Shown: in pieces, positions 8,797 to 61,406 of the stretch | How positions within the stretch are numbered: position 1 is the stretch's first letter | Layout: every line of letters starts with the position of its first letter | Program-made: the position numbers and the translations under genes | Notes under the pieces: model-generated | What the model was told of the DNA's origin: nothing | What the model saw: only the letters and a program-made list of their open reading frames with translations | Database searches by the model: none | Origin: Lepidurus packardi | Taxonomy: Eukaryota > Arthropoda > Branchiopoda > Notostraca > Triopsidae | Assembly: GCA_023053545.1 (NCBI GenBank) | Contig: JAKZAN010000002.1 | Location: 3,332,375-3,396,374, forward strand | Direction of reading: 5' to 3' | Length of the DNA stretch: 64,000 nt

Positions 8797-10478
8797 ATGA
8801 CTCTCTTGCCGCTCACGCCGGACTCGCCGGCTTTCTTGGGGGAGGAACAACGACGGACGCGGTGCAGTGGAACAGCGGCCACGGGCGCTACATTGCTTTG
8901 CAGCGGCTGTGGAGAGCTAATTACTGACCCTTTCTTGATGCAGGTAACAACAGAGAACTAGTTTCTGTTATGACTGGACATTGTTTGAAATAAGTATTGT
9001 AACTGTTTTTACATGAATTTCTACCGTGAAATCCTTCAAACTTAATTCTTCTAAACATTTTCAACCAGTTTTAACTTTCTTTCGATTTTTTTTATCTTAA
9101 AGAGAAAAACTTACAGGAAAGACAGCATAGTTACAACGTGTAGTTATAGTTAGACTTTTAATTACCTGTACAATAATTGTATAAAGAATCCTGTTAGTTA
9201 ATTAGCATATTTAGTTAGTACGTTCAGTTGCTGTGTTAAATGCAAATATTAGGAATATCTTATAAGTACATATATTGACTATATACATAACCGCAGTAAT
9301 TAAAACTGAATAAATATGTACTTATAAGTGGTACATTTTATCAGTCATTCTCTGTATTGTATGACAAAACTTTCTACAGATTAACACGTAAAAACCTAAT
9401 TAGTGTATTCTACTGATCGCTTCCTTACATTCAGGGAACTATATCGCATATTAAGTTAGTACATTTCAGTCAGTAGTTTTGTAACTATTGTAATGTAACT
9501 ATTACGGTCTTGGTATAATTAGAAGTAGACTAGTTCAGTCAATAGATTGTTACAACTATAGTTCGCTTAATAGTAAGCTAAATTCAGTAGTACAAGTCAA
9601 GTCAGTTATGGTTTCAGTTATAGTTCTACTAGTATTTGTAGACAATGAGTAGTAAATTTTTATGAAATACATGGTTTTTAGGTGAGTGGTAGTGGCCAGT
9701 GTTGGCATTCAAGTTGCTTGCGATGTTCCGTGTGCCGCACATTGTTAGACGACCAAACCTCGTGTTTCTTTAAAGACGGACAAGTGTACTGCAAACAAGA
9801 TTATAGCAAGTAAAGACATTGCTTACGAAACCCTCACGTAGGAAATTCACGTTTCCCTCTTTCTCTCTCTTTCTCCGTTCTATGAAGATTATTCAGCGCA
9901 AGGTGTGCAAGTTGTGAACGTGGCATCTCCTCGGCGGATTGGGTCCGACGGGCCAGGGACCACGTGTATCATCTAGCTTGTTTCGCTTGTGACGCTTGTC
10001 GACGACAACTAAGCACTGGCGAAGAATTCGCGCTCCATGAAGGCAAAGTGCTCTGCAAAGCTCATTACCTGGATGGAATCGACACTGGAGACGCTACTTC
10101 GTCTGACGGTAAGCAACAACGACTAGAATTGTTGAGATGTTGAGGGTGGAAGCGGTTGAAACTCACAAGTTAAGGTTTTCGTGTGTACCCTCTTTAGGCG
10201 ATACCGATTCTGATGGTTTACCTGGCCGAGGGAAGTGCAAACGAGTGCGGACGACTTTTACCGAAGAACAAATCCGTGTTCTGCAAGCTAACTTTTTACT
10301 CGATTCCAACCCTGATGGTCAAGATTTGGAGCGGATTGCGGCCTTAACTGGACTTTCTAAACGCGTAACGCAGGTGTGGTTCCAGAACATGCGAGCTCGC
10401 CATAAGAAACACGTCAACAGAAATCGGGTCCACAAACCGTCAGTCATGAAACCCAAGTTGAAAGGTAAAATGGTCTAA
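8797..10478 (+). CDS. Awh: Arrowhead/LHX6-8 LIM-homeodomain transcription factor, copy A
   Basis: Nuclear transcription factor with two LIM zinc-binding domains and a homeodomain. Exons 8797-8943, 9682-9809, 9888-10108 and 10198-10478 give 258 aa. LIM1 begins at [15 protein letters not shown] and continues with [21 protein letters not shown]2 is [19 protein letters not shown] then [20 protein letters not shown]. The homeodomain runs from about residue 174, [13 protein letters not shown], through the third helix [14 protein letters not shown], with Gln at homeodomain position 50. [13 protein letters not shown] and [12 protein letters not shown] are near-identical to Drosophila Arrowhead as I recall it. 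The chosen ATG is the first in frame before LIM1; an upstream exon cannot be excluded because an acceptor-like site sits just before it. The tail after the homeodomain is very short, and a GTAAAA donor right after PKLK suggests the listed stop may lie in an intron. It faces copy B tail to tail. Confidence 0.9.
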
Positions 10479-17650: not shown

Positions 17651-19065
17651 TCAGGTAATTCTGCGGTCGTATTTCAGGTTATTACCTTGGATTTTGTACG
17701 AGTAAAGGAATTGTAGACTGTAAGCGTGCTGAGGATCGGAATCGATTAAACGTTTAGTGGGTCCGTTGCCATGGCTATTCAAACCCTCTGACTCGACCAG
17801 TACGTTATGGTGGCCCTGGTTGTTGCCAGTACTTCGATTTCGCGTTCCAGAGTGTGAGTTTTTGCTCTGGGGATTAGCTGATAAAGTGTTGGGGTGATTG
17901 TTGTTGGAGTTGACGTGCTTTTTATGCCGAGCCCGCATGTTTTGGAACCACACTTGCGTGACGCGTTTGGACAAACCCGTTAAGGCGGCTATCCGTTCCA
18001 AATCTTGGCCGTCCGGATTGGAATCGAGTAAGAAGTTCGCTTGCAGAATCTGCAATTGCTCCTCTGAAAACGTTGTTCGCACACGTTTACATTTCCCTCG
18101 ACCACTACCTTCCGGATCCGTTTCTGTCGACAACCGTAATGATTATAACGCTTCAATCTTAAAATGAATATTTACAATTGATATTCACACATTTAGCAAC
18201 GAATTAAATTACGATATTTTCTTAAAAATTAATTTTGTTTGTTAACTGATTTGATTCGATTAAGACTTTGGAATTAATATTTAACGCTTTACGATCATAC
18301 AGTAAGTAAAGCTAGTGCTACTAACTAGTTTTCATTGTTGATCTTCATCGTAACTTTACATTTACGATTGTGTATGTAAATTAAGAATAGTCTTCGGTAT
18401 AAAAACTGAGCTGAAACCTTCTTTTTGCAGTGTATGGCGTCACATTGGAAGCGGTTTTCATTGTAGCAGCCGCCAAGCAAACTTGACTTTTTTCATTGTT
18501 GCCAGTTAAAGTAAAAACGATTTGATATTTACTGGTCTTATAGACAATGTGGGTCCCTTGAAAAGTTAAAGATGTGTGATCTCTGTTACTGTTGGCCGGA
18601 CTATTAATGATGTTTGATGATGTTGGTCCAAGGAATGCGGGCAAGGAATGTTATTCAAGTGGCTTTTGCGGTCGTGTCTCCCCCCCCCCCCCCCCCCCCC
18701 CCCCCCAACAAATATGCAAGCAAAGCAGGTACATAAACTATGTGTAATCTAAATGGCGTTAGGTTTACTTCTCTCTACGTTCTTTCTTTGAGAAGTTTGT
18801 TGCGGTTGGCATATAAGACCCGAGACGTGTGACAAAGCGGCGCTCATTCGTCATGTCGAGCGGCAACGCAAACGTGCAACATGGGCGACAATGAGCCCCA
18901 GCAATGATCCCCCGCTGCATTAGGCACCTTCTCCCATATTATTTGGCAAAAAGATGACCAAGAGTCCGTGAAGAAATAAGAGAAATAAAAGTGATAGAGC
19001 GAGAAAGAGAGAAATAGTCAGAAAGAAAGAGAGAAAAATCTTGGAGAGTCTATATAGTTTTGAAA

Positions 19066-32544: not shown

Positions 32545-34556
32545 ATGGCTACAACCGAAGACGTGCTACTCATGGTTCCACACGTTCGTTATAAGAAAAA
32601 CGATGGCACTTTCTATCTCATGAACGAAAGATTGGGCTGGATGATGCAGTCTCGCAGTACTTTCGCAGTTTCGCACCAATACAGTGACGTCAAATGTTAG
32701 GAACATGTTCTTAGATACCTTCTTTCAAAGTGTGATCTAACTTCTCTCGTTTTGTAGTACAAAAGATCTCACCTGAAGGAAAACCCAAAGTCCAACTCCA
32801 AGTGTGTCTCCACGACGGATCCGCCTCTACATTCCATTTCAGTAACCCCTTAGGAGCAGCCGCGCAATGTAAAGACCGCGATTCAATCAAAGAAACTTTG
32901 CAACAGCTGCTGCCGAAGTTCAAGAAAGCGGTCAATAAAGAACTTGAAGAGAAAAACCGGCTCCTTTCTGAAAATCCTCAACTCCTCCAACTCTACAAGG
33001 AATTAGTCATCTCCCAAGTCATTTCTGCGGACGAATTCTGGTCTGAACACGCCACCCCGTACATCAAAAGCCAAATTGATGCCAGTAAACAAAATGTAGG
33101 CGTGTCTTCCGCCTTTTTAGCTGATATTAAACCCCAAACCGATGGCTGTAACGGCTTACGTTATAACCTCACTTCAGATCTAATCCAATCCATCTTCAAC
33201 ACATACCCCTCAGTCAAACAAAAACATTTAGAAGCTGTTCCCAACAAAATGACCGAATCGGAATTCTGGACCAAGTTCTTTCATTCACATTACTTCCATC
33301 GAGATCGTCTATCCACCGATAAGAAAGACGTTTTCACCGATTGTGCCAAACTGGATGAACAAGGTGAAAAAACAAGAAAACAAATAAATAATATACAAAA
33401 AGGGAATTTCTTAAAATTCCTACTTCTTATTTTAAATGCATTAATTAATTGTCGTTTTTAAAAAAATAGTTTTAAAGAGAGATTTGGAAGCAAGCAGTGG
33501 AGACCCACTTATGGACATAAACGCGTTACATGACACTAACAATGAAGACCAAAATGCGGCTAAAGGTCCAAGCAATCTTTCAATCCAGAATATGATTCGA
33601 AGGTAGAAAAGGAAAGAAAAGAGAAAAAAATATAACAAATGTTTTTTTAAAAAGGTTTAACCAGCATTCGATTATGATCTTAAAGGCATCGAGTCAAAAG
33701 CCAGAAAATGCGAAAGAAGTGGAAGAGCAGCCTCTTAGCAAAAAAGTAATATTTAATACGACAATAAGGTTTTTAAAAAATCATTAATTTAAGATGAAAG
33801 TAATCGGATTTTGTATAGGCTAAGCTACAAGAGAAGGTTACATATGACGATTTGGGCAGCGAATTGGAAGATCGGGGTGCGAAACTCAGTTTGGATCGTG
33901 TAGAACGCTATTTGCATGGTCCTACGAAAGCAAATGAGGAAATGAATGGCAAATTGAATAGCGAAAGCCAAATTCATGGTGAAGCGATCCAACAGTCTGT
34001 CCAAAGGTGGGCCAGTAGTAGTCCTACGGTCCCTATCTCTTCTAGCACAGCCATTAAAGTACTTGGTGACCTATCCTTAGGCGGGAGTATGATGACTGGC
34101 GTTGTACAAGAATCAACACGTAATTTATTTGCCTTAAAATTCGTTTAAAATTAAGTTTAGTATCCAATAATCGGCTATTTATATTCTAAACATTTTAAAC
34201 CTTATAGATTTCCAAAGCGATACTTTAACGGAGTTAAGAGGGATTTACCAGTCGTTTTGCGAGTTACTGCGACATTTTTGGTCCACATTCCCTCCCACGA
34301 CTCCTCAATTGACAGAAAAAGCTACAAAAATGTACGAAGCATTGCAGCGATTCAATCAAGTCAAATTAGCGCCTTTTGAAGTAAAATTAAATGAACTTAA
34401 AAACTGGATAATTTAATATTAATATTATTATTTTTTTGTCTTTAGCAAAAAATCACAAGGGAAAGTCCTGAAGGACAGAAAGTCATGCAACATATTCGAC
34501 TACAGTTGGATGCTGCATTTCGCAAATATTCACAGTGGAACGAGAAACGTCGCTAG
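32545..34556 (+). CDS. GTF2H1: TFIIH core subunit 1 (p62)
   Basis: Structural subunit of the TFIIH core complex, needed for RNA polymerase II initiation and nucleotide excision repair. Seven exons keep phase: 32545-32695, 32758-33363, 33470-33602, 33655-33745, 33819-34119, 34208-34380, 34446-34556, giving 521 aa (human about 548). The N-terminal PH domain covers about residues 1-105 with [34 protein letters not shown] and [37 protein letters not shown] follows. BSD domains show [15 protein letters not shown] and [31 protein letters not shown] and the end [20 protein letters not shown] also fit the family. The first ATG starts directly at [14 protein letters not shown]. No anomalies. Confidence 0.95.
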
Positions 34557-39461: not shown

Positions 39462-42400
39462 CTAAAGATTCTCATTAGCAGCTTTGGCAGCTATACTCGG
39501 GTTATTAACAACTTCTCCCAAAGACTGAAGCAATTCTTTCCGGTAATCATCGAAATCGCCGTCCACTTCATTTATCGTCTGGTCTTCGATAACATATAGA
39601 CTGCAGTTGGTCTCCCTAATGAGTCTTTCGTCATGGGAAACGATAATAACTCCTGAAATAACAAAAGACAGGAAAGCATTATTATCAATTGTGAAGACTA
39701 TCTTATCTTTCTCGAAAATTTTTAAAAAGTTTGTTGGAATGGAAATTTAAAATAGGAACGGAATCATGCTTACCGCCCTTGTATTCGTTAATGGCCTCAG
39801 CTAACGCGTCAATGGACTCGATATCTAAGTTATTGGTAGGTTCATCCAAGATAAGCACATCTGGCCCCCCTAAACATAACTCCGCTAAGGCTACGCGAGC
39901 CTTTTGGCCACCCGAGAGGTCTTTATTTTTGATGGTATGAGCATGAGAGGCTAAACCGAAGGATCCTAACGCTTTCCTGGCTTTCTCGTAAGGCAAATCG
40001 AACAGACGCATCAAGTACTCTGAAGGGGATTCGTCGGATGTTAAGTGTTCTCCTGAATGTTGATCAAAGCGTCCAATTTTCTATAAAAATAGGAACATAT
40101 TACACACGAGTGGCTTAAAAAAAATCTATCAGATCATTAAACCGAAAACCGAAAGAGAATCAGGTATCAAATCATCGCTGAAAGATAATTATGCGTTCAT
40201 AAGTGTCTACAAAAATATGAAAATTGCAATCAACCCTCTTCGGTAAATAGCAAAAAAGATTAAAACTGAACTAAAACTACTGAAGCAAACGGAAAACAAC
40301 ATAGAACTAGCGTTTAGTAACATTCCTAAGAGCAAAATAAGCCTTTAAAATTTTGCATCAACATAATGAAACAAAAATAAGTATAGGAATGGAAGGAAAC
40401 TAAATGGAAATCAAATTTAATTAAAGTATCTTACCAAACGATGGTTTCTTCTCACTTCGCCTTCTTGTGGCGTAATTTCGCTGATAAGTAACTTCAAAAA
40501 TGTGGATTTCCCCACTCCATTAGGACCCACGATAGCAATTCTGGAGTTCATATCAATGCCAAAATCGCACTTCTTAAACAGTGGCCTTTTAGGATCGTAA
40601 CCAAATTGGATATCTAGTGAAACCATTCCAAAAAAAAAAACATTAATTTTTACTTTAATTCAAGAAGTTTGTCCAATTAAGCATACTATGCATGCCCAAC
40701 ACTGGAGGTTGAAGGGGCGGGGGCTCAGGGAAGGAGAACTTGACAATATAATCTCTCGGTTTCTGGATTAGATCCACTGGAGCTGTCTCTTCTTCATTTT
40801 TCTGCAATTTCGTTCGATTTTTCTCCTGTTTCCGCGTTAAAGCTTCCTTTTGCTTCTTCTCTGCCGCTTTCTTAGACTGTCCTTGGGATTTCAAGTCTTT
40901 TAGCCTCTTCTCTTGCTTCTCGTACTCCTTAATCATTTCTTTCTTCTTCTGCACGTGCATTTTCTTGAACATGGAATAGTTTCCCTTGTAATAATACAGC
41001 TTTTGCTGGTCTAGATGGATAATATCCGTGCAAACGTTATCCAAGAAAGATTGGTCGTGAGAAACAATCAACAACGTCTTCTTCCAGCCTTGCAAATAAC
41101 TAAAAGGACACACACAACCAACGAAATTAATTAACAAATAAAACACCTTCATTAACTTAATAAATTGTTTCAATTAGAACATCCCTAGTAATTCATTAAA
41201 TCCGAATGAATGAAAAATTCCCGTTGATTAAAAACCCCCAAATAAATTTAAAATTTTCCATGTCGTTCAAAAGATCCCACACAATTTAAAGTATCCTATT
41301 TAATTCAAACTAACCCATTTAGTAAAACAATCCTTAATAAATTCAAAAAATCTCCATTAATTTATAAAGTACAAAGTAATTCAATAATCCTAATTAATTA
41401 TAAGGAAATTACTTGTCGAGCCAAATAACCGCGTTAAGGTCCAAATGATTCGTGGGTTCATCGAGCATTAGCAAGGTAGGTTCCAAATACAGCGCTCTGC
41501 CCAACGAAACACGCATGCGCCAACCTCCAGAGAAGTTCTTCGTGGGTCTATCTTGCATTTCCTTTGTGAATCCTAAACCAGCCAAGATTCTTCTCGCTTT
41601 AGGCTCAGCAGCGTCGGCTTTAATGGCTTTCAACTCTTCATAGACTTCTTTCAGATGTTCCGACACCTTCAAATTGCCTTTTTCTTGTTCCGCCTCCAGT
41701 TTCTTGACTTCTTCCAGCAAAGACGTGCGTTTAACGTCCGCTTTGAGGATTGCTTGGACCGCTGGTGTGTCATCTGAGACTACTTCTTGCTCACAAAGCA
41801 ACACGTCAATGGCTGGAGGAATCTGAAGTGCTCTAGACGCAATATGACGTAGTAAAGTCGTCTTTCCATACCTAGAAATGAAGCAAAACCGATTCATTTG
41901 TTATCTGTAAAATGAAACTCGTCTCTAAATCAAATTTTTAGGGAAACTAAATAAAAACTAAAAGTTTCACTAGATATCCAATTTTGTTTGAATATTCATC
42001 GACTATTTACGGAGCTTGCTCTTACCCATTGGGTCCTACTAGACCGTACCGCCGGCCTTGGGCGATGAGTAGACTGGCGTTGACGAACAATTCCTTTCCT
42101 TTGGCGGAAATACTAAAGTTGTCGACTTTGATATCAACGGCGTTCTCCAAAGCGGCGAGCTTTTTGTCCGAAGACTGAGCTTGGGAGATGGTGAAGTTGG
42201 CATCGAGCTCAGAATGGCCAGCGCCGCCTTTCTTGGTGATTAACTCCATCTGCTTGTCATATTCTTGCTGCTTTTTAAGCTTTTTCTTATCTTTATGAGT
42301 CAATTTAGGTTTGGGAATGGCTTCAGCCTCCGCTTGCGCGGACTCGGGTTCATTTTCCTGGTCTGAAAGCTGCAAGTTTGCTTCAAGATCAGCTTCCAAG

Positions 42401-46299: not shown

Positions 46300-46854
46300 A
46301 TGAACGTCATTATGTCGGGCGACAGGGAGAACGATAGACGTGATCTGGACTTGATTGAAAACGTGAAAGAGTGTGGAACTCCGCCAACTTCCGGATTAAG
46401 ATCAGGATCAGGAAGCAGAAACAAAGCTTATACAACTCCTCACTCTTCGACTCGCCGATCAAGAAAGTAAGAACGAAACCTTTTTACAGTCAAATTTTGA
46501 CAGTTTTATTACGGAAAGTTTTTCATTTGGAAAGTCGCGTATTCGACTTTTTTCGATTTTCATTCGATTTATCGATTTCTTTATTCGATTTTCAATTGTA
46601 TTTTTCACTGTCAAGTATACCCATAAAAGAGTAAAATTATGTTGATTGTAACTTCGTTAAGACCAACTGCTCTTCAAACTTTGTTCTTCTATTACGTTTC
46701 TTTAGAATTTCGCAAGCGATGGCAAGGGATGATACAGAGCGCAAACGTAAACGAGTAGCGGTAGCAATTGGTGTGGTAGCAGCCGCCATTTTCGTAGTAG
46801 CCTTCCTTATGGTTGCTATCGGCTTACGAATGAATAACTACATTGACGACATGC
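46300..46854 (+). CDS. Variant A first exons, single-pass membrane protein locus
   Basis: Two exons, 46300-46466 and 46706-46854, joined in phase. Exon 1 starts MNVIMSGDRENDRRDLDLIE and ends with a Ser/Thr/Arg segment (TTPHSSTRRSR). Exon 2 encodes KISQAMARDDTERKRKR, then a hydrophobic segment of about 26 residues (VAVAIGVVAAAIFVVAFLMV...), then NNYIDDM and one base before a GTAAAA donor. Basic residues before the helix and the lack of a signal peptide predict type II topology with the N-terminus in the cytosol. With the shared exon at 61297 the product would be 141 aa. An in-frame TAG upstream defines the Met. Family not recognised. This is the only variant whose N-terminus is split by an intron. 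Confidence 0.7.
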
Positions 46855-49800
46855 GTAAAATAAAAATTCTTATTTCCTTTGACATTGTTTGCCCTTTTCT
46901 GGGAAGGAAATCTCGTTACTCGACACCCGAGTGCCTTGTTTGCGAGTTAAGCTTTGCCAAAGCTTGGGCCCCGTGTAGGCCGTAAAAACCATCGCTACAC
47001 GTGCACTCTTAGATACTTATACGCTTAGATTTCCTCGCTGGCTCCTTGAGGTTTCCTGGGAAGAGAAGAAAAGAGGAAGGAAAGTTGGATAAATAAACAC
47101 GTCTCTTTTTTAGAGGGTATTTGTAAGATGCTTCTTGCAAACACGAACTTCGGAGTATGAGAAATATTTAAGGGAACTTATCAGCAACTTGCCGAATAAA
47201 ACGTTGGCTTGTTTTGGCTGGAGCATTATATAGACGTGCAGAATCAGCACAAGGTTCATAACTACAATAAACAACCCTTTCATTTCCCTTTATATTACAC
47301 TAAACTCCGAAAATCTGACATGTTTACTGAGGGAAAAAAATATCTATTTTCACTTTTTTGGAGTGGAAGAAAAGAGTACAATTTTATCCAAATGTCTGGA
47401 CATTGTTATACTTAAAAATACTTTGTCCGAAGACTACTTTCCTTCGAAAACATTCCTTGGAATAAACCAAAACAAGAGACTGTTAGATTCGTAAGTTATT
47501 CTTAAATTTTGACTAGAATCTTCACAAATCATCGAACACTCGAATACTCGTCCATTGAAACCTTATGGTATACGATCCTCAAACTACTTAAACTTTACGA
47601 TCTACATACCTCCTCACTTAGGCAAAACGTTCGATTTTTTGCGTTGCTTCTTTCCAAAAGCTTTCCAAATGTTTTTAGATTTTTTTTTATATGTTCAAAA
47701 CCCGCTACTGGGTAAGAAAAAGCTCTATTCCTTCCAGTGATCGAATATTTTGTCTCTAATCCGACCCTAAGCAAAGCTTATAATCCCACAATATCCTAGT
47801 TTTCAGTCTACGGCGCATAAGACTCTTCAACTACCTAATCAGAACTTGAAATATCTTCCCAAAACTTCAAAATTCGCTTCCAAACCAAAGAGCTTGATTG
47901 CCCGTCATCTGAAGCTTTTCGTACAAGCTGAGCCTCACAAAACTTACCATACCCATAGAAAGCTCAATTTTTTACCTAAACTTTATTAGCTTTTTCGAAT
48001 TTGCTTAAACAAACTTAATTTAAAACAGATTTGAAGTACACAAAAACCTTCAAAAACCTCCGAAAGTAATTCGATACTCTTTCCAGAAACTTCCCAAACT
48101 TTCGGTACCAAACACCAACCGCCTTTCTGCTGTTATTGCAAACCCTGGCAAGAAACTTTATAGCTTCGGACAGCCCCGCGACAAGAAACACGTTGCACTC
48201 CGAACTCCTATCTTATCAAAAGCCATACAAGATCGAGAAAGAAACAAAAGTCTCCGTCAATCCTCCCAAATAACCCCAAAAACATTCGATTCAGACAGGG
48301 CGACCAAGCTAGCAGCCTCTATGTAAACAAGAAAAAAAAATCACTGTTGCGAGTCTTAAGGCCCATTTGAAAAGGTCTTCAACAGTGAAAAAGATACATC
48401 CCCTTTACATCCGGAACAAAAGCGAACCAGAATGGAAGGCGTAAACAATGGAAAACAAGTCTTTTAATTTCTATGATGATCTTCGCTATAGCGTCCTGCA
48501 GTGTTAGGCACTTGAACCACCAGAAAAAGACACAAACCAGGCGAACACGCTGTCTTCCTGTTGTCAGCCCCCAATTGTCTTGTCACAACCATGTGCTGTC
48601 AGCTCCCCAAATCGTTCTTTTCTCCCTTTCCGTCCTTACCCAAATCCCATTCCGCGTGTTACGTTCGTTCCGGTAAACAAGTTACCAGGCAATGACGTCA
48701 CGGAGCCCCTTGTTTGCCGGCATTCTAATGGATTTTGCAACCCTCTCTGTCTCTCTCATTCTATTAAAACCTCGCAGAGAACAATGGCGGCGATTAATTT
48801 TGAACCTTATACAGCAATTTTCCAGGTTTACGTACCCCGTTTAACCATCAAGACTTGCTGTGACAATATTCCTGCAGCGATATATCTTCTTTACCCTTCA
48901 AGATATTCAAATATTTAGATTCAATCCATTTGATGGCCCTTTAAAGTTTTGGATATTATTACTTGCAAAAAGGTCGGTAAAGGAGATGGGTTAGGGGCTG
49001 GTTTATGCCTTGAGGGCTGGTGAGATAGGACACCCCAAGACTCAAGGCCAGGAGCGTCCAAGAGGGTCACATTGGAAGGGGAAGAGTATGGAATCGGATC
49101 AAGATCGATAAGGACCGGGTGACTTCATTGCCCATACAAAGAAGAGTTTTAGCACATGAAAAGAATTGCCTACTTCTATTTCTTATACTTAAGCAGCTAT
49201 TTCTGAAGAAGTGCACCTTCTGTCAAGCGTGGGTGGTTTACAACGCAAAACACGAGTTCCTGAGAGAATTTTTAATAGAAATGAATAGGAATGGGAATTT
49301 TCTTCCGATTGTGAAGAAAGACATACAGGAAATGCTGGAGAATTTCTGTGCTCAAACTAGAAACGTTGGCTTTTTCTCTCGTTCGCTCTCTTTAACTTAT
49401 GTTTAACATAGAAGACGAAGAGCAAAGGCTCAGTGAGTTTGACTAGGGAGGAGATGGCATGCCGCCAGGAACATGATCTCTAATGGGTCAAGTCAAGCCG
49501 TGACCTCCTTCGTCTCCATACCGAAAATCCCAAGGAACTGGAAAACCTCTGCCTCTTTCCTAACCGCAAATTACGTTCTCTATAAGTTCCAATGTACCGT
49601 CGTAAACATATTGTTCCTTTCCGGCTTAAGAGTCGCTCGAAAAGTCGCGTGGTTTTCCCGCGCAAAGTACAGAGCGTTATACATAGAGGTCCCATAGCTT
49701 TTCAACTGGAAATAAAACTGCTTCAAAGCCAACTATGAGATTACTTCTGCTCGAATCGAAAAATGCTAGATTTCAGAGTTTGCTTTACCAGAGTTGTGAA

Positions 49801-50554
49801 AATTTTTGTTTACAACTGAATTGACGTTTCTGCCTATTTGCTGCCCATTTCTGCCCAATGAGAACTTCTCAGATAGCAAATGGTGGAACCTCTAGCTTTC
49901 GCAACTGAGCTGTTTTTCTGCCTACTTATGCAATAATTTTTGCCTGAAAGAACAATGAACACAGTAAATTAATCATTTTCAAACACTGCATCAAACGGTA
50001 ACAAACAACTGTAACTTAAACAGCGAATTCTAATACCGAAAGATATTTGACTACCGCAGAAATTGCATTATAAAATGTTAGAAAATATATCATTTCCGAA
50101 GTTAGGATTCACATTTCACTATCCTAATACGTGCTCGTAACGTTGAGTTGTTAGAAACAGTGCCGTGATAACCAAATTCGATGAGATGTTGTCCAGGGCA
50201 GCAATTTCCGAATTTCTGCCTAGGCAACCCGATCTCCGGACTTACGCAAACAACCCTCAGAAAAAACTATACCAACACCCTCTCTCCCCTTTTAAGGAAT
50301 TGGGGTAATGCCTTTCTTGTCGACACCGCCTACAAATCCTCCGTAGCATTTACTAAATTTCTTTAAGCATCCATGTCGTGCAACTTCCTCCCCACACAAA
50401 CTGGTTGTTTTCAAAAGGAGAAGGACTCTTTCTCGCTTTTCCCTTTTGCTCATTTTTAGCCGTTTGGCTGCCTATATAGCCTCCAGCGTCGCTTGAGGAC
50501 AGCTAACGTCTACGTGCAAAAGGGGAGCCCGCAGCCACGCTGAAAGAGGCAGAA
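46855..50554. other. Intron of variant A and upstream region of variant B
   Basis: About 3.7 kb, containing no confident exon. Several coding-like blocks bounded by splice-like signals occur at 47417-47490, 47738-47799, 47807-47989 and 48087-48326 (see findings). The 49119-49406 plus-strand frame has no motif or splice support. The last few hundred bases presumably hold the variant B promoter. Confidence 0.4.
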
Positions 50555-51773
50555 ATGCGCCGAAGATCTTTACCCCCGGAGGCTCCTAGGAGAGGAGGGA
50601 GTGCACGTTTCACTGCCCGTACGTTCCTCCGTCATTTGCCATCGCCAGCTAGGCAGCAGAAGTACTGTGCTCTTTCCAAGCCTGTAACACTCCCGAAGAC
50701 CACTTTTTCCCCAGTATTTGTTTGGCGCGTCAGAAATATGCGTGCTGATGATGATATTATCGTGGAAGATTCTCAAAATTACGGGGATTCCGCCCCTTTA
50801 CCAACAATTACGGTGAAAAGTGACTCCCCAATAGTGTCGCGGAAACTTGACAGTGCAGGTGAAGTTGCCGGTACTCAGGACTCGGAACCATTGCAACTTA
50901 TATCCAATCCCCCAGAAATACTTGTCGCTTATATCGCTGGTGACCCAGAGGCAGTCGCTGCCATCGAATTACTCAAACAAGCTCAGCAAGTATGGATGGG
51001 ACGGGACCCTAATCGCCTGCTCAACATTCCAGTGTCACTTCAGACCCTAAGTCCCCATTTACCAGGAATTGCTTCGCTGCAAAACTTGCCTACCAGGTTT
51101 GAACCTCGCCGGTATAGTCACGATGATCTTTCACATCCGTTGAGGACTTCAAATCAAGTACCGGCAGCAGCCAAGTATCGGCGCCGGGCTTCGGCGCAAG
51201 TAGAGCGCCTACCGCATCAGCAAGTAAGGGGCCTGTACCAAAAAAACGCGACCTACCGGCCGAAAACCAAAGCTAGGGCAGACACGTCGGAGCTGGTACC
51301 TGCCGATACTTTCCCCAACCCTTTTTCCAAGACTTTACCGACGCCGCGGCGGTTGTCTAATCCAGAAAAGGTAGTATCGGCGACGAATAGTCGTCGCCCC
51401 TCCTACCATCACTTGCAACACCCTAATATGACGGCAGATGGAGCCAGTAGTATAACCAACAGTAATAGAGATCTTAGAAGACCCTCACGCTTGTTCCCTA
51501 ATGGTACTTTTGGGGAATTGGACGCTCAAGGGTTATCGCAAGCATTGGCTCAGCACAATCGTCGATCGTCTCGAGCATCCTCCATATTTCTGGTAGACGC
51601 ATCTGACAAAGATCCTGCGGAACTCGTACCCGAGCCTGAGGAAGGAACACCGGAAGACATCCGGCGTCGACGCACCGTTTCTGTCATCGCGACAGTGGGC
51701 GCCTTCCTCCTCGTCCTGTCCATCCTGCTCGTAACGATCACCTTGCGACTTGCTACGCATATCGATGATCTCG
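50555..51773 (+). CDS. Variant B first exon, long cytoplasmic tail form
   Basis: One open exon of 406 codons plus one base, starting MRRRSLPPEAPRRGGSARFT. The N-terminal part is polar and low-complexity (Arg, Ser, Pro, Asn) with no known domain; ILVAYIAGDPEAVAAIELLK is the only segment that looks folded and may form a helix. A basic stretch PEDIRRRRT leads into a membrane helix (VGAFLLVLSILLVTI), then LATHIDDL and a G/GTAAGA donor. With the shared exon the product would be 442 aa. A second in-frame Met (MRADDD) could give a shorter form. The orientation rule (positive residues before the helix) again predicts a cytosolic N-terminus. No terminal exon follows locally: in genomic sequence the frame would run only GKKPVE and stop inside the intron. 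Confidence 0.72.
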
Positions 51774-54526
51774 GTAAGAAACCGGTTGAATAAAACATGA
51801 CCTCGTTCCCTGCCACCTTAATTTATATCTTTATTCGGCGTAGACCTTCCTAGACGCTCCAATCATTTCGCTTCTACCTTTTGTCGGTTTAAGGAATAAG
51901 ATGTATAGTTTTCCATTTCTCTGTACGAGCTTCCGTTCACGAAGTAATCGCTCTTACAGCTCATTGGCCGGTTAGGTGACGTCAAAACTTTTTCGACCAA
52001 TATGAACCTTGCTAGCTTAAAAAACGTTATAAACAAACCGCATATTATGCTTGGTTAAGAGTCCAAATTACTACAGGCTAAAATAGCCTTCCGAAGCTGT
52101 TTACAAGTATTACGTACGCTTAAAATAGCGTTATGGGATACGATGGCGTCACTAAAGATTATTTGGTGAATATCTTCGTAAACTTTTGGCCCAAATATAG
52201 TCGAGTTATAGCTCGCCCGATTTGCTTTTCGCCATAGAATCTGAAGCAGTCCAAATATTTGCTCTCATAACTCAAAACGAATGACTCCCCCCCCCCCCCC
52301 CATGGCTGGCCCAAACAAACAGAAAAGCTTGTCCATTTATCAACAGTCCAATCCATCACCACCCCTGTCCGCTTCTACTGAAGAAATAAGCTCGTTTTGT
52401 CTCGCTCGCAACGCCGTCATCTGCACGGATCCTAACCGGACACGCCGAAAAGTGATGAGGCATCATTAGCACTCCGCCCCCGTTTGGGCTATGATTTTCC
52501 CTCCCCGCCACGTAAGTAAACGTCATCGGAAATTCTGAACGAACCCAAACTTTGCCTTACAACTTTTGCGTCTTTTGCGCTCTTAGCTAAATGTTAGTTC
52601 TCTCGTCTCTTCTTCTCTCTCAGCACTCGCCAATCCAAACATCCTGCGGTCTATGGACACAATCAATGATTCACTACCGTGCGGCTCTCTCGTAGGTCGT
52701 ATCTTGGAGCTATGCCTTTTCCCACCTTTACTTTTACTATGACTCTTACTCCTCGTTTTATTGCAACTCGTTGAGTCTTTAGAGGCTTTAAACACATAAA
52801 TAATGCAACCACGCCAGATGGCATTGTCGTGTCTCAATATTCTCCTTCACCAAAATATTATTTTCCGGTGGAATCTCGAGAAATTAGAAAGGAACATTGA
52901 CAAGAGTCGGTAACAAAGAATTATCCTCTCCTCCGGCTTAGCATCGCTTTCTGCAAAAATTAAACCATTTTTACAGAAAGTAATCATTTTTTGACAAAAA
53001 TATGTTTAACGTTTCTGCTGAAGTTGTGGGTGTTCCAAAAGTATTTAAAGAGAATGAAAATCGAAATACTTACTGTTGACGTAAAACGAACATTTCTGCT
53101 GAAACGCAAACAAAGCGGCTTTTGAAACAAAAAAATCGAAAAAAAATTAGGTTCCCAGAAGAATACAATCCCTTTCACACATGCAGACCAGTGCGCAGAA
53201 GTATTCTCCCGGGATGTACAAAATTGAGAAGTTTAGACTTATTTACGCCGAACATCTAAACTAAGAATAAAAAGGGACTTCGAATTACTTCTCATGGACA
53301 GAAATGTTAAGAAATTAAGTGAACTGAAACGGAGAAATGATGGGAAATGTTAAGAAACTTCTCCGGTGAATAAACTTAACACAAATGTTGCAAGCATACA
53401 CATTACAATAATGAATCGGACACACGTGCAAAAACTTTTATCTGCGAAAAGTAAAAGATACTTCGTACTTTTCACCCGTAAGAATTTACAGATGTGCTTA
53501 AAGAACTTGAAGGGGATAGATACATTCTGCAAAAGTGGAAATCTAAAAAATATTGTAAGACCGAAAACATGTGCAACTCCTAGAAAAGTTGCTTCCTAGA
53601 AAGTCACACATTTATTGGAAGATGTGATTGAAAATTCCTGCTGTGCAGAAATATTTTTAAAATCAAAAAAAGCTTTAGCATAGGACAAATGGTAGAAGAA
53701 ACAATAACAGATCTCTTAAAGCCAAAATATTGTTTAAAAAATTACTGCAAAAATACGCCCGTAAGCTAAACATTACTGTCTAAGCCTAAACAAAAGTTAA
53801 ACTATCTCTTCCTACACGTACGTATTCACAAATGTATACCGCCAAAGATATTTTTAAATAAAATTTTTAAAAACTGCGCAAATTAAGCTCATAAATCCTA
53901 TACTTCGGCCAAAATATAAAACAAAGAAGCGTTCTTAAAAACCCACGCTCTATAAATTTTCTACGACGCGACCCTAAAAGAAACTTTTTGTTTCTCCGTA
54001 GCAAAAAAAAAAAACCCTGCAAAATGGGCTTGTTGCCCATCATCCTATTGTCTCGCTTCCCCTTTTTCCATAGATTACCATATCTTATCAGATAGGGCAA
54101 ACGTCCAAGACCCTCAACATCTTGTCAAACTCCGTTAGAAAAAGATCCTTTTGCTTGGGAAAAAATGGAGAAATATTTTTAAACGAAGGCCGAAGTCATA
54201 TTGCCTACCTTAGAACCCCCTTCCACCTCGCCATCTCACCCCTCAAAGATATATACACAAAACGTATCCACACACACATACACATACACACCGGCGCGCC
54301 TGCCGTCGCAGTGATGCAGTAAACCTGCCTGTCCAATGTCGATACTATTCTCGAGTCTGCCCTTCGCCGAGTCAGGCGACGGTCCTGTTTTCAGTGATTC
54401 TCTTAACTTCCTTTCCGTGCTTCCCACAGACGATTCTCTCTGAAAACGTCTTTAAGAATCTTTGAAATTTCAAAATCTTCAGAAATCTCTTCAATTCCAT
54501 GGGAGTTGCTGATTTGCCCCAACAAA
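51774..54526. other. Intron of variant B and upstream region of variant C
   Basis: No supported gene. Contains a 14-base C run near 52287-52300 and a CA microsatellite near 54270-54292. The 52303 frame (MAGPNKQKSL...) has neither helix nor donor and was rejected as a further variant. Confidence 0.45.
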
Positions 54527-55283
54527 ATGAATCCGTTGCTGCAGAATCAGCTAGCTCAGGCAAGTCAAGGAACAGATGTGAAACCTAAGCTACAACGACA
54601 TCCCTCAGGCGCGGAATTAATTCGCCAGTTAAGTTTAACCAAAATGGTGGTTCAGCAAGCTCAAGTGAATTCTTCTTCTTCAACTGGAGGAGGATCAGCC
54701 CCTTCCACCCCTACTCCTCCTCAACCCCGTCGCTCCGCCCCTCCGCCTTCGCGATCGATTCGCCCCTCTTCCGAACGCCATTCAGCTTCACCCTGTTCTA
54801 ACAATTCTTCAACTTCCGGCCAACCGCGTTTAAACCTCCACCTTTCCCTCCATGCTAAGAGCAAACCAAAGAAGAAAGAAGCCAACCACAAGAAGGGTGG
54901 ATTAGCCTCCGGTAACTTGCTCGTCACTGGCGCTACTTGCCATCAGCTGGTTCCTTTGGTGACGTCAATGGTGTTGCCGCGGGGTGTATTGGATCCACAC
55001 CGGGGACAGCAACTCGTTCCTTCGGGGGATGAAGAAGAGGGTGGAGGGCTTGTAGGAGGGGAAGATGAACTACCTAGCCTTCATAGCGAGGAATTCGCCC
55101 TCAGACGGCCGCATAAGCGCTATGTACCGCCGGCCAAGAAAAAGAAAAAGAGGAAGAAGAAAAAAGGGGCATTGTCCAAGCCAGCGCGTTGCGTCATCGC
55201 ATTGACGGGCATTGCGCTCTTGCTCATGTGTTTCGTACTAGTAGGCGTTACTCTACGCTTAGCACCCTTAATTGACGAAATGG
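54527..55283 (+). CDS. Variant C first exon, lysine-rich tail form
   Basis: One open exon of 252 codons plus one base. MNPLLQNQLAQASQGTDVKP begins a polar region with AELIRQLSLTKMVVQQAQ (likely amphipathic helix), a Pro-rich segment (PTPPQPRRSAPPPSR) that could bind SH3 or WW domains, Lys-rich KKKEANHKKGG, an acidic loop (GDEEEGGG), and a very basic run KKKKKRKKKK directly before the membrane helix (CVIALTGIALLLMCFVLVGV). TLRLAPLIDEM and a G/GTAAGT donor follow. With the shared exon the product would be 288 aa. An overlapping upstream frame starts at 54499 (CCATGGGAG) and could limit translation. Same architecture as variants A, B and D. Confidence 0.72.
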
Positions 55284-58200
55284 GTAAGTTCCGTGAGGGT
55301 TTACTTGAAAGTTGAGGACAGCACATGGACTTACTGAGCTCTTTCTATGATTCCTTCAGATAGTTGCAGGTTTGATAAATATTTATGTGTTTTTCTTAAT
55401 CCTTTCGAGTTTCTTACATAATTCAGCTGATTTCTGAAATAGATCCACTTACTAATCACGGAGTTATGTGGGCTTAACAGATTTCATCTCGCAATCTCCT
55501 AATTTTAAGAAGAATTACTGACATTTCTGTGAATTTCTGAAGATCAAGAAGAATCGAAGCGCATTTGTTTAGACCTAGATAGAAATTTCTTATTGTTAGC
55601 AATTCTCAAACTCGGGTACTGGTGGGGATTAGTGGAGATTATGTCTTCGATTTACGTTGATTACTGTAAGGAACACAAAAGACCTCCCAAAAAGAGACGT
55701 TTTTTAAGCCCCTTTCCTTCTTGGAAAAAAACTTATGAAGTCCATAAGTGTACACAAAAGAGAGCCAAAACAAACAGATACATTTGGATCGCTTGCTTCC
55801 TAGCATACGTTGCATATCATTACAGACTAACCCATTTTGCCGTGCCGAACTTCTTTTCTCTAAATAAAAGAGACGAGAACAGCATCTTTCAAGTAATTTC
55901 TTAAGGGACATGGAACACTTTACAAAGGGAAAGCACGTAAAGGAGTTCCTCGTTCATTAAGAGGAACATAACTCAAGTTTCTAAAAAGACTCGACGGACA
56001 CAAAAGCGCTCGTTATAAGCTCTCGTAAGTCTCGTGATCTCAAACCATCCAATTTTAAAAAATCCGTAAAATATCCAGAAAATCTTGAAATCTTCTAACA
56101 GCTTTTTCTGACAGCGATATAGGTGTTTTGGATCCCGAGTGAATACTATTCTTTAGAAATCTTTCGCAAAAATTTGCAAAATGACCACCCAAAAAATGCC
56201 CAAGGGAAATTCGGAAATTCTGTACAACACACATTCTCCATCAAGCGATTCAAAAGAGAAAGCCTGACCATCACAAATATCATCTAAATTAGGCATTCAA
56301 AAATACTTTTGATCCTCTTCTTAACAACTTTACGCAAATTAGCTAACTTAAGTCCCGAAACTACCCTACTTAAGAAAAAAAGTCTAATTTCAATGCAACG
56401 AACCCTCGACAACATATAATACCAAGAGACGTACTATTCTCCACGCTAGCTGTGTGTAGACGGCGTATCGATCCGTTTCTCTTCCCTGTTTGCTTTTTGC
56501 TTCCAATGCTAAAAGGTGGTAAAGATTCATATCCAAATCCTCCAAAGTTTTCAGTTCTATCCATTTTAACAGTAATAGATCGTGTTTCTCGGATAGTGTG
56601 TATTGTTTGAATTACTACTGGATATTTCTTGCCCGAACTGAGAACTCTGTGGCACAAAACTGACGCTAGAGCAAAACACATTTTCTGTAAATGATTTATG
56701 TCACGTTCTTTCACGCAGCTTGCCACTGCAAGGCACCAGATTGCCAAGGGGTAGAAGCTTATTCCGTACCTATAGTCGTGCTAGTCCTTCCCTAACAAAA
56801 AAGGTCGTTATAAAACTATTCCAGACCTCTTGCTATTCATTAGCCGTCAGGTTATACTCACTAAATTTCTTTCTCCGTTCCATTGCGCAGTGAAGCGACC
56901 TAGCAACGTCATTGTGCCTCATTCTCCCCAACTCCCTTGTAGTTGTATGCATGCAAAGTGTAACAATGTCATTTTACCGTCCTTGCTCGATAATGCCGGG
57001 AAAACCCAGACAGGAGGCAAAAACTCGGGAAATGAAAATGAGGAAAAGTTCAACACGTGGCAGCTTTAAAGTAAAAAAATTAAAAAAATTAAAAAAAAAA
57101 TAAACCATTCACGTGCCTGACTTACTTCATCCCAGAGTAAACAAGACCACAACTGTGAAAAACAAGTTTGGTAATATTGGCTCGCTCATGATTGGTTCTT
57201 GAACCCGCGCTTTTTAAATAAAGTTCATCTGATCGCTTAACTTATTTTTTTAAACCGATTTTCGCGAATTCGTTCAGGGAGTCTTTGTACAAAAGTGCAA
57301 AACAAAAAACAGAACAAATCCACGTTTTCCAGTCTTATGACGCAGGAAGGGTACTTACGTAGAGTTAGTTGGCCCCAAAGGGCAAAAGTACTAAGCCAAT
57401 CTTCTTGTCTAAAAATAAAACTACTAATCGAGTTCTTTTGTTTAGAAATATCGAAAATGGAATTTGGTTCCATAACTTGAAACCTTCTAACAGGAAACCC
57501 ATTCAAAAGGTCAGGGAACACGCCTTATTTGTAAAAAATCGATATTTACAAGTATCGATTACATATTTTTGAACAGAACTGAAATAGAGACAAAAAAAAA
57601 AGAGAATTGTTTCAAAATATAACGAGATTTTGCCCACGTTGAAAGCAAGAAAAGCACCGAATAAAGTTATATTAACTTCCCATATGAACTCAAGTATCGA
57701 TTTTGCGACACTGATCCCCAAATCGGATACAGTAGTATTATAACGGATAATTGATTTTGGATCTTTGTTTACAATACTAGTCATTTAATCGATTAAAAGG
57801 AACTGTTAGTAAAAATACAATAAGTTCACTTACTTGACTATAAAAATATAATTAATCACAATTTTAAAAACCTGATTGATTATAAAGCTCATTAATCGTT
57901 TTTTTCTTAAACCGATTACACCTGGAATAACATACCGTTATTAAAATCAATAAGTACAGAAAAGGTTAAGTAATATAAAACCTATACTATACTATAAGAT
58001 TTACATTTACATTTACATTGTACGTTACAAATAGAGTAACCGATTACCAATTGTAACGTACTATATTCGATTTTTACCGGTAGTTCATTTCTGAAAAAAG
58101 TAACGGATTAGAAAAAATTAAAAGAAAACAGAATGAGTTGTTCCAGGACCAGGGAATCGTTCGTATTACTCCAGATCACTAGAACTCCCAAGGTATCGAT

Positions 58201-59183
58201 AAATAAAGGTCAAAGATAAAAATCCACATTTAAACGGTATATAAACCCCCCGTTACTTTTCAAACCAGATATTGAAAATTGAGATGAACTTTACAATCAG
58301 AAAATTAGATTATATTTCTTCACGGAAATTTCCCAAACACATTGCTATTTTACTTCAAGGTCAACGTCACGGGAATAAAATAAACAAGTCCCGCAGAATT
58401 ATATGCCTAGAGAGGAACCACGACCCAAACTTAGTCCAGTCTTAATATAACTTCATCTTCCCACTGCCTGCTCTCACCCCTCCCCCCATTCACCCGTTCT
58501 ACCCGCTTTGTGCCTTTGCAGCTAAGCTTAAAGTAGGCGTGGCTCGGGTCTTCCCACCCAAAGTTAGGGTATTAAAAACCTTAACAATCGGGACATGCAG
58601 CAGGCTGCATATGGCGTTGGCAACATAAAATAAAACTGCAATATAGGAAAGAGAGCAAGCGAGGCAGCCAAAAGGGCAGCGTTCCAATAGCAAAAAGTGA
58701 AATCTTCCTTACTGTCTGGCAGTGTGTTCTTCTGCCTTAAATTTCTGTCTGTAGTAGCAGTCCGGCGCTGTATCGCCTCCCAGTAGGGTCATTTCTGGGT
58801 TTAAACTCTTTAAACAGACCACGCCCCTCTTAAAAATCTGCCTAAATGAGCAACTGGATGTGGATGGATAGTTTTTGCGCATACGTGAGCGATTTCGTGA
58901 GTGCATACAGTATTACTGCTCAAGAAACGTGCATCTTGGTATCAGTCGACGATGATCTGTGTAATTTTGCGACCGCGAACCAAATTTTGAACCCCTTTTT
59001 ACGTATTTATGCATTACTGCGCTGTGCGCAAATACTTGCGCAATTTCTGCCGCGCATAAATCAGTTCTACTGTGCTGATCTGCATTACCATGGACGGTTT
59101 ATGATGGCTACGTATGTGACACTTTGCGCTCTCGCGCACCAGATCACTGCGCAAGCAGATTTTGAGTAAAAAGACACATTTTT
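55284..59183. other. Intron of variant C and promoter side of variant D
   Basis: No supported exon. The 55593-55904 and 57237-57784 frames are AT-driven and lack splice partners. Close to variant D the sequence changes character: four TGCGCA palindromes occur between 58876 and 59153. Confidence 0.45.
58876..59153. promoter_or_regulatory. TGCGCA cluster upstream of variant D
   Basis: The palindrome TGCGCA occurs at 58876, 59024, 59037 and 59148, with further GCGC-containing near copies (GCCGCGCAT, CTCGCGCACC). Roughly one copy per 4 kb is expected by chance. It resembles half of an NRF-1/Ewg site. It lies just upstream of the variant D start, so it is a candidate promoter. A 107-codon frame covers the same stretch and is considered incidental. 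Confidence 0.4.
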
Positions 59184-59877
59184 ATGAACCAACACCTTTT
59201 TGTCGTAATGGCGTCAGAATTGCGCTTACACTCGCCACTGGGAAAATATAATGTGACGTATCAAGATGCGGGCGAACGCGTTGTAGCGCGTAATCCTGTG
59301 CGGAGACATGTAAGTGACGCAGCGTACGGCACAGGCGCTGGATCACGTAAAACTGTGAAGCGATCGCGTATAACGCGGCATGATTCTGATACTGCCACCA
59401 AAGACAACAATAACAAGAGTTGCATGCCTTCAACCAATAGTCGAACATTATTACTGCAAGGGAACAATTCCGATTCCTCACTGGTGACATCAGGATCGCG
59501 TAGAGGCCGACTTGTGCAGCGCGCAGAGAGCGATTTGCGCAAAAAGCGAGTAGCTTTTGCAGACACGGCTACGGTGATGCCTTCCCGAAAATTACGCAAG
59601 TTAAATCGAGAAGATTTAGACATCGAACATGTAGTTTTGATGTACAAAAACGATTCTCCTTTGCAAGACTTACGCACAACCGATGTGGAACGCGTTTCTA
59701 CCAAAGATTCACGAATAAGCGAACCGAAACCACTCGAGAGAACAGAAATGACCCCAAAAGAACGGCGACGACGCAAAGTCGTCATGGCGGTTGTTTGCAC
59801 CACTTTTGTCATCCTAGCTGCCAGTGTTCTTTTTGTCCTCATTACTCTATACAACGCATCAGCCATTGACGAAGCTG
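59184..59877 (+). CDS. Variant D first exon, with PP1-docking-like motif
   Basis: One open exon of 231 codons plus one base. Two in-frame starts exist: MNQHLFVV and, eight codons on, MASELRLHSP; the second has the better context (G at -3 and +4). The tail is Arg/Ser/Thr-rich (RITRHDSDTATKDNNN) and contains RKKRVAFAD, which fits the RVxF docking motif of protein phosphatase 1. MTPKERRRRK precedes the membrane helix (VVCTTFVILAASVLFVLITL), then YNASAIDEA and a G/GTAAAC donor. With the shared exon the product would be 267 aa. It lies closest to the shared exon (1.4 kb). PP1 binding is inference from a short motif. Confidence 0.72.
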
Positions 59878-61296
59878 GTAAACAACTCCCCTGTTTCACT
59901 AAAATCAGCCATATCAAAATGTAGTTGTTTTTTTTTGCTTTTTTAAGAATGGGAAATGAACGCTTCCAAAGGTCCTAGCACCCTTAACATGGTAAAGAAT
60001 CAGAGATTTTCTTAAAAACTTGAAACGAATCATGGTCTACCAACCTTTACAATTAGAAGTTATATATCTAATGAAAAAGCAGTTTACCGATTCCTGGTCG
60101 ACAAGTGCATATAATTGGTAGGGAATCAAAGAATCCACAAAGAACCATCCGGAAATCATGACTCCGATTCGAACGAGTAACTGTAAGTTCTGACAAAAAA
60201 GGTTTAAAGATTCTTATGCAATTACTGCAAAAACTTGCAGGGACTCAAAGATTCTCCAACAAATGGCAAGTGATTTTTGATTTGGCCATTAGAATCCGTA
60301 CTTGTATATTTCACAAATATTGGCTTTAACATATTGATGTCTCATAACGAAAAAAAAACAGTATAGAATCAAAGATTCATCAGGAATATAACACAAACGT
60401 TTCGATGTCGAAATAAGATACTCGAATCATGGAAATGTCCTAGAATCATTAGCAAAACTGATTTGTTTGAATGTAATGTGAGTAACAATGAATTTTTCCG
60501 TAAAGCATGCAACCCTCTTACCCACGCCAAAGCGAATTAACTCGTAATAACGTCTAAATCATTCATTGGAGTTTTCTTTTCAAAACTCTTAAAATTGACA
60601 AAAACGCGACCTACCATTCTATCAACAAATAGTATCAATAAGTCAAGATGAGAATACCCTCTACTCAATGACTAGTAGTCACTGAATTCTTCGATCCGAA
60701 TGATTTATCTACACCCCTAGCCAATGCAAACCTATTGAAACTCCAAACTCCATTATTTTTCTAATAACGTAAACTAAGTAATTTAAATTAAAATTAGACA
60801 ACAAGACCAAAAATCTCAACATCAATCGATTCCGAATTCCAAGGCTCCAGGCCAAACATCTCCACCAATTTTTAAAACACCGATAAAAACTCGTCAAATT
60901 TGTCCCCTAGACACCCTTAGAAGTCCAAGCCAGAGAGGTCGTCAGGTTATCAAAAACTCCTACAAATGTGACATCTAAATATATCCATGTCTCTTCCCCG
61001 ATTCCGTATTTCAAGGTACGATTACTGTTGCCAAGGGCATCAAGCCAACAAGGCCAAAGAAGTCAAATGGTATAATTTACGAAGGATAAAAATGATCAAA
61101 TGATCTCCCTAACTAGCATTTCTAACCCCCTTCTTAAGCACCCTCGTTACGGTATCCTACGTTGATATTCTCGTTTGACGTCAACTGGGTGAATGAGTCA
61201 AGCTTCCAGGAATAGTTTCTTGAGATAACTAAACTTCTCGAAGATAAAAAAAATTACACCCTAAAAACTAATTTGCTACTTTTCTTTACTTTTTAG
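59878..61296. other. Intron between variant D and the shared exon
   Basis: AT-rich, without coding-like blocks. AATCAAAGATTC-like strings recur between about 59998 and 60370. It ends in a pyrimidine-rich acceptor (CTTTACTTTTTAG). Confidence 0.5.
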
Positions 61297-61406
61297 TGCG
61301 GAAAGAGAACGAGGGCTTGTTAAAGAACCTCAGCAGCGCGAGTTCGAACAGCAGTAGCAATATAACTACCGAAACAGAAGTTTGGAATGTGACAACGCCC
61401 CCTTGA
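61297..61406 (+). CDS. Shared 3' coding exon: small glycosylated ectodomain
   Basis: The acceptor TTTTTAG is followed by TG, completing a codon with the single base left by each upstream variant exon (C in A, giving Leu; G in B, C and D, giving Val). It then reads RKENEGLLKNLSSASSNSSS, NITTETEVWNVTTPP and stop, 35 residues. Four N-x-S/T sequons are visible (NLS, NSS, NIT, NVT), very dense for such a short piece and consistent with an extracellular or luminal side. There is no Cys, so no disulfides. No family recognised. The frame has no local Met, so it needs an upstream exon, and the four variant exons are the only phase-1 candidates with membrane helices found on this strand. Confidence 0.75.

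Follow-up and report, generated by a model that had tools for sequence, protein, structure and literature searches.

We analysed a 64,000-nucleotide stretch of the genome of the tadpole shrimp Lepidurus packardi (contig JAKZAN010000002.1, positions 3,332,375 to 3,396,374 of the forward strand; hereafter the window). Its plus strand carries, over about 15 kb, four coding units (A to D) and one short last exon, flanked by the Multivesicular body subunit 12 gene (plus strand, PF10240) on one side and the RpL35 gene (minus strand) on the other. Units B, C and D can with good confidence be read as parts of a single gene in which alternative cassettes are spliced to the same terminal exon, and unit A appears to be a fourth member of this layout, a placement we consider reasonably likely. 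The parts of the cluster are listed below, slashes marking splice sites.

46300..46466, plus strand: tentative first coding exon of unit A, an open frame from ATG 46300 to donor AAA/GTAAGA, with a weak codon score
46706..46854, plus strand: exon 2 of unit A, behind acceptor tttctttag, carrying IDDM and the phase-1 donor after a basic stretch and a membrane helix
50715, plus strand: pyrimidine-rich acceptor upstream of the start of unit B, accactttttccccAG/TA, possible end of a non-coding 5' exon
50738..51773, plus strand: unit B cassette, 345 residues, putative cytoplasmic tail and helix, phase-1 donor; 28 relatives; start placed by codon score
50906..51007, plus strand: conserved block of unit B, NPPEILVAYIAGDPEAVAAIELLKQAQQVWMGRD, predicted helical module; mean majority 0.85 in 23 rows
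54527..55283, plus strand: unit C cassette, 252 residues, phase-1 donor; one relative, the wasp protein P0056 (E=5.1e-5)
59208..59877, plus strand: unit D cassette, 223 residues, phase-1 donor; 27 relatives, alignment A1
59544..59558, plus strand: K-R-V-A-F of unit D, candidate RVxF-type docking motif for protein phosphatase 1; 27/27 relatives
61297..61406, plus strand: constant exon, V or L, then RKENEGLLKNLSSASSNSSSNITTETEVWNVTTPP and stop; VRKENE follows the cassette in relatives P0001, P0028 and P0029
61452..61457, plus strand: AATAAA poly(A) signal, read directly

Four cassettes and one last exon

A first-pass annotation of the sequence had described four units, each with a basic stretch, a membrane helix and a phase-1 GT donor, and this description was confirmed. 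The donors read c/GTAAAA at 46854 (A), g/GTAAGA at 51773 (B), g/GTAAGT at 55283 (C) and g/GTAAAC at 59877 (D), and each leaves one base of a codon which, completed by the TG of the acceptor at 61297 (ttttctttactttttag/TGCGG), yields L (A) or V (B, C and D), followed by RKENEGLLKNLSSASSNSSSNITTETEVWNVTTPP and the stop. As had been proposed, frame is kept with all four units, the joined forms A, B, C and D reaching the same stop with 141, 381, 288 and 259 residues when the preferred start codons are used. The terminal exon likewise holds everything attributed to it, namely 35 complete residues with four sequons (NLS, NSS, NIT and NVT), a stop ending at 61406 and an AATAAA nearby. Unit A stood as regards its exon with helix and donor, but not as one coding exon: it has either two coding exons (46300-46466 and 46706-46854) or a start at ATG 46719. 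The start of unit B is probably 50738, the segment 50555-50737 having a non-coding codon score; since the acceptor at 50715 lies just upstream of this start codon, unit B may carry a non-coding first exon ending there, and 'first coding exon' is the safer term for the cassettes.

The units were compared with chance expectation by a strict scan requiring at least 3 K/R, a 19-residue helix with a Kyte-Doolittle score of at least 1.8, ID[DE] and a phase-1 GT, which returned exactly these four units on the plus strand of the window, and none on the minus strand; 40 second-order Markov sequences of 64 kb (2.56 Mb, scanned on the plus strand only) yielded no such unit. A laxer scan returned the same four on the plus strand and none on the minus strand. 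The arrangement of tandem, similar 5' exons with compatible donors, four in number and all of phase 1, is that of a variable-first-exon cluster. When the last 37 residues of the cassettes were compared without gaps, each pair had 9 to 15 identities and the sum-of-pairs score was 298, whereas 20,000 shuffles keeping helix and flanks apart reached 139 at most; the weakest pairs were A/D (reached by 190/20,000 shuffles) and C/D (69/20,000). Judged by this likeness, units A to D are divergent copies of one another.

The junction peptide of each unit was also searched against the whole genome (108.6 Mb, 344 contigs) at E up to 10, scores being reported for the best candidates only. The D query returned D, the constant exon and B; the C query returned C, B and the constant exon; the B query returned all five cluster parts together with one outside match (E=0.81); and the A query returned only A itself and unit B (E=0.009). 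Matches between units were weak throughout (E from 0.009 to 0.12). The families of relatives of B and D match by profile with E=1.2e-8. Coding signal was modest under a codon score trained on 992 codons, the score being reached by the non-coding null in 12% of cases for exon 1 of unit A, 4% for its exon 2, 4% for B, 1% for C, 6% for D and 11% for the constant exon.

Between units C and D lies a 123-codon open frame (55533-55901, plus strand) that falls outside the cluster pattern. Upstream, the Multivesicular body subunit 12 gene extends from 43824 to about 45650 (plus strand; PF10240, E=1.3e-62), its 3' end having been set by eye. An open frame at 44490, considered as an additional first exon, is instead an exon of this gene (PF10240).

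Relatives of the cassettes and of the constant exon

Searches outside the genome found 27 proteins related to D, 28 related to B and one related to C, under no database names other than 'uncharacterized' or 'hypothetical'. The B relatives include three from named Daphnia, among them P0028 (Daphnia carinata LOC130692067 isoform X1), and the C relative P0056 comes from the wasp Aphidius gifuensis. The family had initially been regarded as unplaceable, but on these relatives it is placed in Pancrustacea, which holds both the wasp and Daphnia. In the literature search no paper was recognised as describing the locus, and the retrieved sources give the family no function. Scans of viral and prokaryote contigs gave 100 and 27 pattern matches respectively, none confirmed as a relative. 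For alignment, redundancy was judged by eye, and 19 of the 27 D relatives (A1), 22 of the 28 B relatives (A2) and 16 of the 28 (A3, with P0054 also left out) were used. Two relatives, P0021 (D) and P0041 (B), are probably physically linked, because both give the same figure, 14,892, for the largest contig of their source.

Three relatives read V after I-D-x-x and continue with RKENELQTFTSVSSNGDMI, namely P0001 (D-type) and the B-type P0028 and P0029, the last from Daphnia sinensis. The tails of P0001 and P0029 both begin V-R-K-E-N-E, like the constant exon of the window, and are identical at 65 of 67 positions, whereas their cassettes agree at only 85 of 291; in Daphnia-type animals two different cassettes therefore bear the same tail. 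Unit C matches the wasp protein P0056 at 25 of 42 residues across the exon junction, and P0056 continues VRKKNEELINSL, whose start, V-R-K-K-N-E-E, matches that of the window's tail, so that a C-type join appears to be common to an insect and this genome. A common constant exon is thus seen in relatives for B and D, with a matching join for C, while unit A is placed by its likeness to B. Within the window, 61297 is the only exact phase-1 AG/NN-RKENE among the AG sites (3653 on the plus strand, 3868 on the minus strand), and a genome search with the constant exon, whether by DNA or by protein, gives a single match.

Most relatives (26/27 for D and 26/28 for B, the annotated protein P0054 among the latter) read Gly after I-D-x-x, the remaining three being those with V. 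Sequences following the Gly differ except among close kin, and we take these relatives to be open frames running on into the intron, because an unspliced G/GT must read Gly. The donors are conserved.

The membrane helix and the tails

Conservation is concentrated in the helix, where the mean majority is 0.97 for D and 0.95 for B; in the tails it is 0.49 (D) and 0.53 (B). Since a plain anchor could drift among hydrophobic residues, the helix is probably a binding surface. Its columns 13, 20 and 27, seven apart, hold small or hydroxyl residues in all four units, a heptad triple not reached in any of 20,000 shuffles, in a test made after the pattern had been seen. Net charge in the 15-residue flank on the N-terminal side of the helix is +3 (A), 0 (B), +8 (C) and +4 (D), and a type II topology, which we infer, fits the basic residues found on this side of the only predicted helix.

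In the tail of unit D, K113, V115 and F117 do not vary across 20 aligned rows, mostly with R-K before and S/A-D/E after. An RVxF motif occurs in 27/27 D relatives, typically as R-K-K-R-V-A-F-[SA]-[DE], the pattern having been written after they were seen. According to PMC3795061, the RVxF docking motif of protein phosphatase 1 is usually set with basic residues before it and acidic ones after it; unit D has the motif in this setting, as proteins interacting with the phosphatase do, and its tail probably recruits protein phosphatase 1 in this way. The tail of unit B has a conserved block of 34 residues, for which AlphaFold predicts helices at 60-66 and 70-88 with a mean predicted local distance difference test score (pLDDT) of 94-95 for residues 61-80 and 84 for residues 81-90, and three further conserved blocks with R-R-x-S. 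Most of the tail is below 50, and the model as a whole has a mean pLDDT of 54 and a predicted template modelling score of 0.25. In a second model (P0029, mean pLDDT 46) the helix passes the exon junction with a pLDDT of about 50-59 there, and nothing was drawn from it.

Elsewhere in the window, two similar homeodomain exons lie on opposite strands about 7 kb apart, at 10113-10475 (plus; Pfam Homeodomain, E=2.7e-19) and 17654-18142 (minus; E=8.1e-19), their mutual likeness having been judged by eye. A TFIIH p62-like exon with BSD and PH_TFIIH domains is found at 32736-33458 (plus), and an ABC-type ATPase exon (ABC_tran) at 41412-41900 (minus).

Interpretation and comparison with known systems

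The explanation that we slightly favour overall is a type II membrane adaptor of Pancrustacea whose cytoplasmic tails can be exchanged while its tip stays the same. A single gene spanning about 15 kb would encode several related type II proteins that cross the membrane once. From each cassette would come the start codon, the cytoplasmic tail and a separate membrane helix; the common last exon, to which every cassette would be spliced, would add no more than a short outer tip with sequons, hardly more than a stub carrying sugars. The helix and the first outer residues (I-D-[D/E]-x-[V/L]-R-K-E-N-E) would form the constant working part, which would most likely bind a partner within the membrane, while the tails would be exchangeable: that of D would recruit protein phosphatase 1, that of B would present its helical module and R-R-x-S, and those of C and A would be basic. 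The choice of cassette, probably made by promoter, would then determine the signalling machinery brought to one and the same membrane complex. We hold this adaptor mechanism only tentatively, and more speculative still is the idea of an ancient pancrustacean plug-board, in which the near-invariant helices of the four cassettes would offer the same packing face to one membrane partner, and the cassettes would swap the intracellular enzyme recruited to it (a phosphatase in D, other modules in A, B and C) under an unchanging outside. If this were true, the locus would amount to a protocadherin-type cluster in reverse, with cytoplasmic signalling rather than surface identity being switched. A conserved gene combining a fixed outside with swapped tails and helices would give a simple genetic handle on the wiring of one membrane complex to different signalling enzymes from cell to cell, in a family that includes Daphnia, which is amenable to laboratory culture and editing.

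Several observations weigh against this explanation. Between 46854 and 61300 there are 38 pyrimidine-rich AG sites, and 27 of these open at least 15 residues in phase, so that the choice of 61297 is not forced by the window sequence alone; this acceptor, which the first-pass annotation had selected from the sequence, is not the sole possible one, and it is singled out because relatives show RKENE next after the cassette. The annotated P0054 (Daphnia magna OUZ56_001209, B-type) ends ...IDDLGADLPLALL..., with GADLPLALL after IDDL rather than a VRKENE exon, and may reflect an error in the gene model or a last exon that is genuinely used as an alternative; the proposal of swappable tails on a constant outside is supported in part, by B and D, whose tail is common in relatives, and by C, which has the matching start, but not by the continuation of P0054. 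Past VRKENE the tip is poorly conserved (17 identities among 34 positions aligned with P0029), and sequon density in the tails of four relatives is at the level of composition (9 to 67% of shuffles), the four sequons in 35 residues of the window being mildly above their own (2.6% of shuffles). The outside searches were made with units B, C and D, unit A being searched within its own genome only; C has a single relative; and the queries, which covered the helix and tip, favoured matches with a conserved helix. The contrast between helix and tail is therefore partly built in, and gaps in partial rows further lower the tail figures. A Pfam scan of the four spliced forms gave nothing above the curated cut-offs (among aligned members only scattered weak matches were seen, the best, 0.0016, in one member), sequence searches of the PDB with A1 and A2 gave no match at E up to 1, and a Foldseek comparison of the B model with the PDB gave none at E up to 10.

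Some of these observations would be expected if the units were separate genes, four tandem duplicates with a last exon apiece, and 61297 only seemed to be shared through an artefact of reading: P0054 has another continuation, other in-phase pyrimidine-rich acceptors are available, and the donors of A and D carry A, not G, at +5. Such an arrangement is nevertheless improbable in view of the one exact RKENE exon in the window, the one genome match for the constant exon, and the common tail of P0001 (D) and P0028/P0029 (B). Serial splicing, in which the A donor would join the phase-1 acceptor at 50715, pyrimidine-rich and in frame with B, and so produce a two-helix A-B protein, is very improbable; it would presumably place the B tail outside the cell, and the segment 50555-50737, which overlaps the exon concerned, has a non-coding codon score; the starts of the B relatives vary and argue neither way.

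Two other possibilities concern what the tails do. The proteins might be membrane-tethered cytosolic or nuclear factors whose helix is cut by proteases like signal peptide peptidase, releasing the differing N-terminal tails. According to PMC7366577, SPP, SPPL2a and SPPL2b seem to favour substrates whose outer part is no longer than about 60 residues; the outer tip here has about 35, and the basic clusters beside the helix, strongest in C, could act as nuclear signals. Against this, the tails of P0001, P0028 and P0029 have 66-68 residues, neither a near-invariant whole helix nor a common outer juxtamembrane motif is needed for release, and no known DNA-binding domain turned up in the tails when A1 and A2 were used as queries, so that we regard release as unlikely. 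The tails might otherwise serve purely for sorting, sending one protein to several membranes without recruiting signalling enzymes, as their fast evolution and the largely unstructured prediction for the B tail would allow; the conserved B blocks and the invariant K-x-V-x-F of D look like binding sites instead, and we think a pure sorting role unlikely too.

The layout itself has precedents, whereas novelty seems to lie in the family and in the combination of large tails with a separate helix for each. DPP6 and DPP10, dipeptidyl peptidase-like auxiliary subunits of Kv4 channels described in PMC3973911, are type II proteins in which alternative first exons vary the cytoplasmic tail and the helix binds the channel core. 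Like them, the proteins predicted here are single-pass type II, with alternative first exons that change the cytoplasmic N terminus and leave the outer part common. They differ in that DPP6/DPP10 have a constant helix and a constant globular ectodomain and, in DPP6K, a short variable tail of 17 residues, whereas each cassette of the window has its own helix, with a tail that in B reaches about 300 residues and an outer tip of about 35, and no Pfam match to a large globular ectodomain of S9B type was found. The window protein resembles DPP6/DPP10 without being one of them.

GCNT2 is a type II protein. Its gene (IGNT) has tandem variable first exons, each with its own promoter and a membrane segment near the N terminus, joined to common exons (PMC1885805), and each variable first exon of UGT1 has its own promoter (PMC3325998). 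The tandem variable exons joined to common sequence are like those proposed for the window; both, however, are vertebrate enzymes, and the GCNT2 variable exons are very similar. In the window, by contrast, no enzyme domain came to light, the cassettes have diverged strongly from one another, and the constant part is a single tiny exon.

In the clustered protocadherins (alpha and gamma), large variable exons that include the helix are spliced to small constant exons (PMC7811963), as would be the case here. No Pfam match to cadherin repeats was found in any of the four units; unit A gave a weak match to the protocadherin family PF08374 (E=0.25, 11.8 bits, the cut-off being 26.3), at residues 57-98, over the helix. 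The first-pass annotation had spoken of protocadherin logic turned round, which is a fair description of the layout, though DPP6/DPP10 and GCNT2 were already known as precedents for it. The protocadherin variable part is mainly outside and the constant part inside, and here the two would be reversed; in the compared clusters of this layout, variation affects the outside, the catalytic portion, or no more than a short tail.

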